A stretch of 64,000 nucleotides of DNA from Pirellulales bacterium (GTDB lineage Bacteria; Planctomycetota; Planctomycetia; Pirellulales; JADZDJ01): positions 1-64,000 of the forward strand of contig DASRSD010000145.1 in NCBI GenBank assembly GCA_035656635.1. The letters are read 5' to 3'. The notes below the pieces were generated by a model. The model was not told the DNA's origin and made no database searches. It saw only the letters and a list, made by a program, of their open reading frames with translations. This document shows, piece by piece, positions 19,295-63,423 of the stretch (position 1 is the first letter of the stretch; each line of letters starts with the position of its first letter). The position numbers were made by a program, and so were the translations under genes.

Positions 19295-20314
19295 TCACCC
19301 CGTTTGCGCTTGCGGCTGAACGCCATGCGTCAACTGCCCGCGGAGGCGTTCAAATTCGTCGTGGTTGGCAAAGTGGATCACAATTTTCCCTTTGCCTTTG
19401 GCCGTTTGGCTAATTTGCACTTTGGTGCCCAACGCCCCTTTGAACTCCTGCTCCAACGACGCCGTTTGCCGGCTGCGGGTTCGTCGGCGCGAAGCTGCGG
19501 CCGGATGCGATTCGCCGTTTTCATCCACTACCGTCAACTGCACCTCGCCGGCTTGGTCCAACGTTTCCTGCACCAATTGCTCGGTGGTGCGGACACTCAA
19601 TTCCTCATTTTTAATTTTTTCACAAAATTCTGCTTGGCGCTGCTGATCGCCCAACGGCAGCAAAGCCCGGGCGTGCCCAGCACTGATGGCGCCTTTGCAC
19701 ACGGCTTCCTGCACCACTTCGGGCAATTCCAACAAACGGATCAGATTGGCCACGGTGGAACGGTCGACCGCCAATCGGCCGGCCAGCTCTTCCTGCGTGC
19801 AGCCGTAGTTGTTGAGATATTGCTGGAACGAAGCCGCTTTTTCAATGGCGTTCAAATCCTTGCGCTGCAAGTTTTCGATGATGGCCAGCTCGGCCACTTG
19901 CCGATCGTCGGCCTCGCGAATTTGGGCCGGCACCTGCGACCAACCGGCTTTAATGGCCGCGCGTAAACGACGTTCGCCGGCAATGAGTTGATACCGATCG
20001 CCCAACCGGCGAACCACAATCGGCTGGATCAGCCCATGATCGCGCAAGCTTTGGGTTAGCGATTCCAAGTCGGCATCGTTAAAATCGTCGCGCGGCTGGT
20101 GTGGGCTGCCGTCGATATCGTACACGCTAAGCTGCGTCATGCCGCTGGGCAGTTGCGTATCGGCAATGGCTTCGGGCTGCACGGCAACCAGCGCTTCGAC
20201 AGAAATTGGCGTGGATGACTCGGCCGGTGCATTTTCGTTGTTTTCTCCCGTGCTGCCAAAGGGATGGCCCAGCAGCGCTTCCAATCCGCGGCCCAGTCGA
20301 CGTGTGGTGCTCAT
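19295..20314 (-). CDS. parB: Chromosome partitioning protein ParB
   Basis: A 339-aa ParB/Spo0J family protein that binds parS and spreads as a CTP-dependent clamp. Visible features are the start RRLGRGLEALLG, the CTPase region with GERRLRAA (113-120) and ENLQRKDLN (147-155), and the helix-turn-helix EELAGRLAVDRSTVANLIRL (175-194). A C-terminal dimerisation domain ends the protein. A CGGAGG ribosome binding site precedes the ATG. It lies downstream of parA in the same orientation, and three parS sites lie upstream of parA. Confidence 0.95.
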   Translation of the reverse strand: MSTTRRLGRGLEALLGHPFGSTGENNENAPAESSTPISVEALVAVQPEAIADTQLPSGMTQLSVYDIDGSPHQPRDDFNDADLESLTQSLRDHGLIQPIVVRRLGDRYQLIAGERRLRAAIKAGWSQVPAQIREADDRQVAELAIIENLQRKDLNAIEKAASFQQYLNNYGCTQEELAGRLAVDRSTVANLIRLLELPEVVQEAVCKGAISAGHARALLPLGDQQRQAEFCEKIKNEELSVRTTEQLVQETLDQAGEVQLTVVDENGESHPAAASRRRTRSRQTASLEQEFKGALGTKVQISQTAKGKGKIVIHFANHDEFERLRGQLTHGVQPQAQTG

Positions 20315-20364
20315 GAAAAAACCTCCGGGTTAGTTTGATTTAGTGATTCGCTGTTTTGAAAATC

Positions 20365-20392
20365 CCGCTCCGCTAGCGCGTCGCGGCTAAAC
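20365..20392. repeat. Short interspersed palindromic repeat, copy 2
   Basis: Same 28-bp unit as 19207-19234, with A for T at the eleventh base, in the parA-parB intergenic gap. Its presence in the gap argues for separate or at least interrupted parA and parB transcripts. Confidence 0.7.
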
Positions 20393-20444
20393 TTTTATTT
20401 GGCAATCTGCTTTCTGCCGGCCGCCTGCCGCCCACTGCATTTCC

Positions 20445-21188
20445 CTACGCCGCTTCCAGCACTTCGCGGCAAAGTTCCACGTAAGCCCAGGCGCCGCGGG
20501 ATCGAGGGGCGTATTCAATCACGGCCAACCCGTGGCTGGGGGCTTCGCAAACCGCCACGTCGCGGGGAATGACCGTGCGGTACACAATTTCTCCAAAAAA
20601 ATCGCGCACCTGATCCTCCACCTCACGGGTCAATTCCAAGCTGTCATCGACCATCGTCAGCACGATGCCGCCAAACTGCAGGCGCTGGTCTTTTTCTTTC
20701 ATCACCTGGCGAATCACTTCAATCATTTGGGCCAAGCCTTCCATGGCGAAGTATTCGCATTGAATGGGCATGACCACTTCGGTGCTGTTGGCCAAAGCCG
20801 TGCGCGTCAGTTGCCCCAAGGATGGTGGACAATCGATCAGCACAAAATCGTACGAACTCAACCCGCTGGCCATGTGCTGCCGCAAAGTAGCCGCCTGGCT
20901 GTTGGGACCGGCCAAAGCTTCCACATCTTGAAAGCTGCGACTGCCCGGCAGCAGCTCCAATTTCGCCAACTTCGTTGGCAGCAGCGATTCCTTCCAGGGC
21001 GCTTGCGAAACCAGCGGGTGCCGTGCGACCGGTTTTTGCCCGACGCCGCTAGTGGCGTTGCACTGCGGGTCTAAATCGATCAGCAAGGTCTGCCTCCCTC
21101 CGAGCGCCAGCCCGACGGCCAGGTTTACCGCGGTGGTCGTTTTGCCGACGCCACCCTTTTGATTTGCCACACACAAAATTCGGCCCAC
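20445..21188 (-). CDS. parA: Chromosome partitioning ATPase ParA (Soj)
   Basis: A 247-aa deviant-Walker ATPase that drives ParB-parS segregation by nonspecific DNA binding. The motif KGGVGKTT is at residues 11-18, the switch region includes LLIDLDPQCNATSG, and the Walker B region is VLIDCPPSLGQLT. The start is GTG (MGRILCVANQKGG), with AGGA upstream. The length fits short chromosomal ParA proteins without an N-terminal DNA-binding domain, which favours a chromosomal rather than a plasmid system. Confidence 0.95.
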   Translation of the reverse strand: MGRILCVANQKGGVGKTTTAVNLAVGLALGGRQTLLIDLDPQCNATSGVGQKPVARHPLVSQAPWKESLLPTKLAKLELLPGSRSFQDVEALAGPNSQAATLRQHMASGLSSYDFVLIDCPPSLGQLTRTALANSTEVVMPIQCEYFAMEGLAQMIEVIRQVMKEKDQRLQFGGIVLTMVDDSLELTREVEDQVRDFFGEIVYRTVIPRDVAVCEAPSHGLAVIEYAPRSRGAWAYVELCREVLEAA

Positions 21189-21347
21189 GTGGGAATTCCT
21201 TTTCCAACTGATAAAGCCGTGACCCAGCAGTGGCGCTGTAACGCTGGAGTGACAAGAAGGTGTCAGCCCCGCCGTAATGCTTTTCGGACCGCCGCGGGGT
21301 CAGGTTATAACGAGCTTGCCGAAGGCAGCGGATATCCCATAACCGGA

Positions 21348-21363
21348 CGTTTCACGTGAAACC
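21348..21363. promoter_or_regulatory. parS site 1
   Basis: The 14-bp core GTTTCACGTGAAAC (21349-21362) is a perfect palindrome that matches the bacterial parS consensus TGTTNCACGTGAAACA, except for the outermost bases. It lies upstream of parA. Confidence 0.9.
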
Positions 21364-21384
21364 CTACGGTTCCACAAAAGCGCC

Positions 21385-21400
21385 TGTTCCACGTGAAACA
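21385..21400. promoter_or_regulatory. parS site 2
   Basis: TGTTCCACGTGAAACA, an exact match to the canonical 16-bp parS, 37 bp after site 1. Confidence 0.95.
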
Positions 21401-21434
21401 CCCAAAATATGCAAGCATTGCTGGCGTGATAGCC

Positions 21435-21450
21435 GGTTCCACGTGAAACA
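21435..21450. promoter_or_regulatory. parS site 3
   Basis: GGTTCCACGTGAAACA, one base off the canonical 16-mer, 50 bp after site 2. Three clustered sites would form a strong ParB loading zone. Confidence 0.92.
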
Positions 21451-27623: not shown

Positions 27624-27692
27624 AATGACCAAGCACCAATTGACCAATCGCAGGTACATCATTTTTGGCCATTGGGATTTGGTCATTGGTTA
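27624..27692. repeat. Imperfect inverted interspersed repeat (ATGACCAA / TTGGTCAT)
   Basis: GAATGACCAAGCACCAATTG is mirrored by GGGATTTGGTCATTGG within 70 bp. A related GTGGTCAGTGGTCAGTG stretch lies at about 22947-22972. It sits between two EPS-cluster genes, and its hairpin could attenuate readthrough. Confidence 0.5.
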
Positions 27693-47479: not shown

Positions 47480-47592
47480 GAGAGCCCCCATATTCCGGCA
47501 ACTGAAAAATAAAGCCAGCCACAATCTTCGCCGAAGGCGCTCGTGGTGTCAATTGATTTTATCGGGCCAAATCTCAGGCGATTGCTAAGAAG

Positions 47593-47722
47593 AGGCTGTT
47601 TCAAAACTGGACTTCCTTCAAGGGTGGCTGGGGTCGAGTGCCGCCGAGCCCCCAGTGAATAGGCTGCTGGGGGCTCCCTTCGGTCGACCCCAGCCACCCG
47701 ATTCCTAGTTTTGAAACAGCCT
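47593..47722. repeat. Nested palindromic (MITE-like) element, copy A
   Basis: Three concentric perfect inverted pairs: outer AGGCTGTTTCAAAACT (47593-47608 with 47707-47722), middle GGGTGGCTGGGGTCGA (47622-47637 with 47684-47699) and inner GAGCCCCCAG (47646-47655 with 47667-47676). The middle and inner parts recur at 63305-63382, but the outer stem there is a different sequence. It has no coding capacity. It could form a long cruciform or RNA hairpin. Confidence 0.8.
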
Positions 47723-48210
47723 GTAAGTAAATGGTTTGCCATGGTCATCCGGCGATACCATCGCCGGCTTAGTGCGTGGCCCAAAAAGTGTGTTGAGCTT
47801 TCCGAGCAATGCCGCTATAGTGTACACATGTTCCGAAAGTGTTTTATCGCTGTGATGTTTTTGAATCCGCGCAGGGTGGACTGCGCGCGGCTTGGCATGG
47901 GCATAAGTCTTTCGCCCAGATACTCACAACGCCCGCCGGTTAACGACAATCGATCAGCGGAACAAGATCACACCGAGATCTACAATTCACCGAAAATGCT
48001 TGTTCCCAGCCTGAAACTCCCCGTGCTTTGTCAGCAGCAGTCCGCAAGCGGCACTGTGTTTTCGCGGCCAATTGGCAAACGTCGCAGACTAGATTATCCC
48101 TTTTTGTCCGAAAACTTTTTCTCGTGGGCAAAAACAAAAAGTTCTCAAACACTTTCGGCCCAATCAGTTGGTGAAAAACAGAATCTTCATACTGAAGTCG
48201 TTTTGCAAAC
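47723..48210. other. Intergenic region without a supported gene
   Basis: Between the nested palindrome and the cysK terminator. Frames here (including one of 115 codons on the minus strand that crosses the terminator, and one of 849 codons on the plus strand that runs antisense through cysK) lack family similarity and ribosome binding sites. I see nothing else convincing. Confidence 0.5.
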
Positions 48211-62657: not shown

Positions 62658-63280
62658 CGTAACTCCAAGTATTAGACGTGCACCACCAAATAAAGTTCCG
62701 AAAATGGCATATCAGTCCGAGGGAGGTTAACTTTTCTGAAAATCTGCAAGGGAAATTCTAAATTCTGCAATGGCATGCGGTTAGGTTGAATTTTCCCGGC
62801 AGATTATTGGGCGATTCACTGATATTCTCCGGCAATTCGCCATTTCGATCAAAATTGGGCCACTTATTTTCCTCTTAATTTCCTCTTGAATTGGGCCACG
62901 GCAAAAAATCGGCTCGTGAAAACAAGGCATTTTCGTATGCCGAGGCGGTTTCCTTGAAAATCCCAAAGGGAAATTATGAAGCCACAAGTGGGGTTGAGCT
63001 CCCTGCATGGCCGCTTTCCTACAACAACTGTTTTTGATTGGAACCATGGCAGCCATCGCCCGCTTCTAGGCCACAATTTTGTTTCTTGGATGTTTTGGAG
63101 CATTTCACTTCTTCTGTTACGTCGCTCAACGCTTGCCGGCGGGTTTTTGATAATTCAGGATCGCTTTCGGATGATTCAGGTCAACTGTCGTAGCCATCCA
63201 GCATAACAAACCCATGGCCTAAAACTCGAAAGTTTTTTTCGCTCGCCGCCATTGGGGAACGTGTTTAAATTTTTGGTAGT
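62658..63280. other. AT-rich intergenic region without a supported gene
   Basis: No convincing gene: frames here are short and lack ribosome binding sites. The stretch holds tandem-like fragments, for example ATTGGGCCAC twice around 62855-62900. It may contain the promoter of the leftward sigma operon. With 63281-63401 it forms a repeat-rich gap between the sigma operon and the BlaI system. Confidence 0.45.
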
Positions 63281-63401
63281 GGGCCAGTTTGATGAAAACA
63301 ATTTGGGTGGCCGGGATCGAGTACCGCCGAGCCCCCAGAATTTCTGCGACTGGGGGCTCACTTCGTTCGACCCCAACCACCCTGAAAAATCAAACTGGCC
63401 C
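63281..63401. repeat. Nested palindromic (MITE-like) element, copy B
   Basis: Outer perfect arms GGGCCAGTTTGAT (63281-63293 with 63389-63401). Middle arms GGGTGGCCGGGATCGA (63305-63320) pair imperfectly with 63367-63382. Inner perfect arms are GAGCCCCCAG (63329-63338 with 63350-63359). The inner and middle parts are shared with copy A at 47593-47722, and the outer stem is different. It sits just upstream of the blaI promoter. Confidence 0.78.
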
Positions 63402-63423
63402 CCCAAATTTTTTGAAAAATCGC

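Follow-up and report, generated by a model that had tools for sequence, protein, structure and literature searches.

The window analysed here, a 64,000-nt stretch of DNA from a Pirellulales bacterium, contains two nested palindromes, at 47593-47722 and 63281-63401, just where the original prediction had placed them, and in each the outer arms are 100% complementary to one another though unlike those of the other copy. In copy 1, perfect pairing holds for both the outer arms (47593-47608 with 47707-47722) and the middle arms (47622-47637 with 47684-47699); in copy 2, it holds for the outer arms at 63281-63293 and 63389-63401. Both fold far better than dinucleotide-shuffled sequences (z = -11.3 for copy 1 and -6.8 for copy 2), and the core motif GGGTGGNNNGGNTCGAGNNCCGC occurs exactly in both copies and at no other place in the window.

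The true extents are slightly larger. Copy 1 occupies 47592-47723 on the forward strand and is a complete mini-transposon of an end class that we denote A, with a left terminal inverted repeat (GAGGCTGTTTCAAAACT; 47592-47608, forward strand), a right terminal inverted repeat (47707-47723, reverse strand) whose inner 16 nt are complementary to the left arm, and, between them, the class A version of a shared 78-bp palindromic core (47622-47699, forward strand). The left repeat is found exactly at 13 places in the genome, all of them core copies, and the duplication flanking copy 1 is mismatched (GAA/TAA). Copy 2 spans 63275-63404 on the forward strand and is a class C mini-transposon with ends that we assign below to a putative IS1 type. 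Its left terminal inverted repeat (GGTAGTGGGCCAGTTTGAT) lies at 63275-63293 and the class C version of the core at 63305-63382, both on the forward strand, and its right terminal inverted repeat lies at 63389-63404 on the reverse strand. This right end is slightly decayed: comparison with three other copies (L036, L038 and L055) revealed that their outermost CACTACC has become CCCC. An 8-bp direct repeat, AAATTTTT, flanks copy 2 as left (63267-63274) and right (63405-63412) target-site duplication. In a relative of the same genus (G001), copy 2 is missing at the matching syntenic site, which adjoins a conserved promoter-proximal block upstream of a BlaI-type gene; the upstream sequence in G001 is too diverged for a base-exact join at the empty site, and no alignable flank adjoining copy 1 was found from which its empty site could be read.

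The window is part of a 4.9-Mb draft genome (190 contigs, 95.6% complete), in which we counted at least 61 copies of the core, whether full or partial. Around the same core sequence (GGGTGGCYGGGGTCGA...TCGACCCCAGCCACCC) there are at least four outer-arm classes, each self-complementary and each present in several copies. The further copies thus do not share one constant outer arm, as they would had the two window copies been chance neighbours of other repeats. Class A (GAGGCTGTTTCAAAACT...) comprises 13 near-identical copies, including window copy 1, eight of which have identical cores; class B (GGTAGTGATGCAYTTTG...) comprises about 12; class C (GGTAGTGGGCCARTTTGAT...) includes window copy 2; and class D (GGTNGTCGCCTAATTTG...) consists of older, more decayed copies, many of those with this core (core 1) missing one arm. 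Complete A, B and C elements measure 130-134 bp in total, with a left arm of ~30 nt and a right arm of 24-25 nt, and the core boundary is clean in every class (GGGTGGC..GCCACCC). Of 26 copies examined, all but one fall between the called genes, in either orientation without preference, a count that is a rough guide only because the crude codon-based gene caller missed known genes. Beyond this genome, G001 has only degenerate core copies, none was seen in one other genome of the same family, and the exact core pattern had no match in the GTDB species genomes, a set that may lack the window's own genome or one very close to it.

Examining the arms revealed that classes B, C and D, together with a coreless 33-nt palindrome (L088, class F) that carries AATGGCTG at both flanks as an 8-bp duplication, have common ends of the form GGTNGT-n5-A(A/T)TTTG, and differ only in the middle five bases. 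Positions 1-6 (GGTNGT) and 12-17 (A, A/T/G, TTTG) are near constant, and positions 7-11, which read GATGC in B, GGGCC in C, CGCCT in D and GTCCT in F, change jointly at both ends of an element; at position 4, the two ends are often mismatched. Across 29 elements with ends of this type, the two ends are 89.7% complementary, as compared with 73.8% (maximum 81.9%) when arms were shuffled among elements. The covariation of outer stems for which the original prediction proposed to look is present, in the form of paired changes confined to positions 7-11 of the B, C, D and F ends. Judged from these sequences, the pattern is that of two binding sites for one enzyme, not that of a stem maintained as such. 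The ends of class A bear no relation to this series. Searching for the common-end pattern returned 58 matches, versus 3 in a reversed control, and among them were 14 elements of 119-142 bp in which D ends surround an unrelated palindromic core (E), most of them with 8-bp duplications.

Target duplications, a further check suggested at the outset, were found in both end systems. On both sides of complete B, C and D elements stands a direct repeat of 8-9 bp (for example, GGGGCGTG, CACCGCGGC and AGGAAAAT), and the duplication score of 46 for these classes compares with -114 (sd 15) when right flanks were shuffled among elements, the highest of 5000 shuffles reaching -41 (n = 17 elements, including some whose boundaries were misplaced or that had lost an arm). 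In class A, TNA occurs on 23 of the 24 flanks examined, and the 3-bp duplication is exact in 9/12 elements. Here the shuffle test is weak, with 4.4% of shuffles reaching the observed value, because only TAA and TTA occur; the class A evidence rests on a fixed target at a fixed boundary. Five class A copies (L003, L008, L009, L073 and L074) lie within or beside a repeated tract resembling CCTGGCTTCCTTATAA, possibly a preferred class A target.

Short (~120-142 bp overall when complete), multicopy, devoid of coding capacity, and bounded by terminal inverted repeats with precise boundaries and a target duplication, these elements are MITEs, a known kind; what is new is one core common to unrelated ends. 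A literature search found no account of this core, nor of exchange between cores and ends. The elements resemble other bacterial MITEs (NEMIS/Correia, ERIC, RUP and Nezha) in being short, gene-less, palindromic, multicopy and mostly intergenic, with terminal inverted repeats and a target duplication, but differ from them in having several unrelated end pairs per core and several cores per end pair.

A likely origin for one set of ends came from outside the genome. The 17-nt end of L088 (GGTAGTGTCCTAATTTG) is identical (17/17) to the ends of elements in other phyla that are bounded by terminal inverted repeats. Two of these, a 2,956-bp element from Verrucomicrobia (L141) and a 2,694-bp element from Armatimonadetes (L159), have the L088 arm at both ends and encode a protein of 275-277 aa that scores above the cut-off of PF03400 (DDE_Tnp_IS1); it also matches NF033558 (NCBIfam IS1) at E ~1e-18, below that model's own cut-off. 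The accompanying 8-bp duplications are perfect in L141, L138 and L146, and match at 7/8 positions in L159. Relative to these transposase-bearing ends, D differs at 2-3 positions, and in B and C the middle block is different, with GGTNGT and the inner TTTG retained. The ends identical to L088, the IS1 transposase between them and the duplications together mark the B, C, D and F ends as putatively of IS1-family type, and all four classes combine the end match with the 8-9 bp duplication expected of IS1-derived MITEs. An autonomous partner in the same genome, which is not strictly required of a MITE, was not found: PF03400 had no match at E <= 0.01 in the window's draft genome. This weakens the IS1 link, and the enzyme acting there is therefore one that we infer. 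Like the IS1 family and its non-autonomous derivatives, the B, C, D and F elements have ends beginning with GGT and 8-9 bp target duplications, and the 17-nt F end recurs identically around a PF03400 transposase gene in other phyla; unlike IS1, the window elements contain neither a transposase nor an IS1 remnant, the palindromic core is common to an unrelated end class, and one variant consists of ends only (33 nt).

Some elements with IS1-type ends are of interest in themselves. The Verrucomicrobia element (L141:4340-7295) is unusually long for an IS1-type element (2.96 kb) and has extra ORFs beside the transposase, one of them with an HTH_3 domain. In a Desulfomonile MAG (L133:3002-6038), a 3,037-bp unit with the same ends (one mismatch) and an imperfect flanking repeat encodes a C5 DNA methylase together with a Vsr endonuclease, with no transposase seen, and is possibly restriction-modification cargo moved by IS1-type ends. 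A 929-bp unit in a Granulicella MAG (L146:20-948), whose IS1-type ends and 8-bp duplication (GGTTAGCG) are both perfect, contains nothing but an ORF that has no Pfam match.

Full-length elements bounded by class A, B or C ends were not found. Class A ends gave only two unpaired matches among 297 order-level genomes, both in other genomes of the order, and, in viral contigs, a single loose pair (4 mismatches, 1,036 bp) enclosing a frame that does not encode a transposase; class B ends had no paired occurrence in viral contigs. Class A ends appear most like those of the IS5/IS1031-type group, which has GAGNCTG ends and TNA targets. This assignment is predicted from the target sequence and the end consensus of the group: the class A elements share with the group the 3-bp TNA target, as would an IS5/IS1031-derived MITE, and an end beginning GAGNCTG, but no transposase with class A ends was found, and they are candidate members only.

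How firmly core and arms are tied to each other can be read from the cores themselves, which cluster by arm class into A, B, C and D versions, with C falling within D. Arms and core are therefore usually inherited together, and chimeras, nesting and inversion are rare. In one chimera (L030), a C left arm and C core are joined to a B right arm, without a target duplication. In L012 as compared with L008, the 29 bp between the stem repeats are inverted, leaving 1 residual mismatch versus 10 without the inversion. For two of the 12 B copies (C13 and C121), the distance to a D/E element is exactly one duplication, so IS1-ended elements sometimes insert at each other's edges, and from such stacked ends larger nested units could be mobilised. 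The rearranged copies thus illustrate ways in which cores and arms may have been exchanged. At least one transfer of the core between end systems is nonetheless needed, because A and B-D share the core and not the ends, and since D ends occur with both core 1 and core E, the interior is replaceable. Modular exchange, one of three origins that the original prediction had offered for the exchanged stems, is supported in outline by one core with different end pairs, D ends with different cores, a coreless palindrome and the C-B chimera. There is no need to invoke selection for a long stem of whatever sequence, because the termini are constant, the middles co-vary, position-4 mismatches are tolerated and target duplications are present; the arms behave as transposase recognition ends.

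These observations are most probably explained by two MITE families, one IS1-type-ended and one IS5-like-ended, that carry the same palindromic core as a passenger. The outer stems would be terminal inverted repeats, with a separate DDE-type transposase recognising each pair in trans, and their self-complementarity would follow from the need of both ends to present the same binding site. If the ends track transposase specificity, this would be the simplest cause of the joint change of the middle five bases in the B, C, D and F ends. The core would be a cassette between ends of ~30 and 24-25 nt, transferred at least once between the two end systems by capture or by recombination inside palindromes, and the elements in the window's genome would be mobilised in trans.

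Alternatively, the core may be a palindrome with mobility of its own, which acquires unrelated outer stems by inserting at the axis of other palindromes, among them elements made of terminal repeats only. We consider this unlikely, even if the identical sharp core boundaries in all arm classes fit it at least as well as passive capture. A coreless palindrome with an 8-bp duplication exists (L088); armless cores exist (e.g., L016 and L069), though these may be decayed elements; and in five copies (L051, L056, L068, L070 and L072) another palindrome stands in place of the core loop. Relatives of a dispersed palindrome found at 27624-27687 of the window (AATGACCAAGCACCAATTGACCAA / TTTGGCCATTGGGATTTGGTCATT) are what replaces the loop in these five. 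The insertion of a core into pre-existing palindromes, likewise proposed at the outset, may have occurred, and in L018 a whole core is nested within another core, but no target duplication consistently borders the core within the arms. Moreover, no dedicated transposase was found for the core, and the sorting of cores by arm class implies that few such events are needed. That the core moves between unrelated end pairs, by insertion into or recombination at palindrome axes, as part of an exchangeable kit within one bacterial genus, is similarly a doubtful proposition.

More improbable still is that the stems are kept because the 130-nt hairpin, once transcribed, functions as an RNA or terminator, with compensatory mutation changing its outer pairs. 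The very stable folds, the paired outer-stem changes and the position of the copies outside genes called by the crude method are in keeping with such a role. However, the changes fall within a single block of 5 bases flanked by constant termini, many elements have a mismatch at position 4, class A is unrelated to B-D rather than a compensatory variant of them, and the duplications mark precise insertion. A terminator role was rejected, as the elements lack the T-run typical of terminators and show no orientation bias in the crude gene map. No Rfam family matches the elements, the only known RNA in the window being a tRNA.

REPs have been reported from Planctomycetes (PMC3733652), and the genome has 16 Y1_Tnp matches. 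Descent from a REP/BIME-type repeat dispersed by a REP-associated tyrosine (Y1) transposase, whose proximity the original prediction had suggested checking, is nevertheless very remote: the core was not found in the eight best of the 16 Y1 loci, no palindrome pairing was seen around a weaker Y1 match that lies close to a class A copy where contig C116 ends, and the elements resemble DDE elements in having inverted repeats at two ends and target duplications of 3 bp or 8-9 bp. The likeness to REP/BIME repeats with RAYT genes extends to their being palindromic, multicopy and mostly intergenic; REPs are not known to have such target duplications or two-ended inverted repeats, and no RAYT association was seen for the window elements. 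Two of these eight Y1-transposase-like loci (L262:1253-2159 and L264:1235-1929) have palindrome pairs of their own (TCCGGGCCACCC..GGGTGGCCCGGA and CGACTCTGTGAGTCGGGTCG..CCGACTCACAGAGTCG, respectively), resembling the arrangement of RAYT genes with REPs.

With the two-family MITE reading, the ends and interior of miniature transposons can decouple within one genome: the same core is found with at least two unrelated end systems, and a single end type can enclose different cores or no core at all. Together, the B, C, D and F ends form a natural series of paired changes at five positions, making transposase end specificity directly testable. They also call for caution, in that perfect covariation of a hairpin stem can stem from transposon ends rather than from RNA structure. 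Palindromes of a different kind occur elsewhere in the window, where the region at 19295-21449 contains ParB and ParA genes together with three GTTTCACGTGAAAC-like palindromes (21349-21449) that are probably parS sites.
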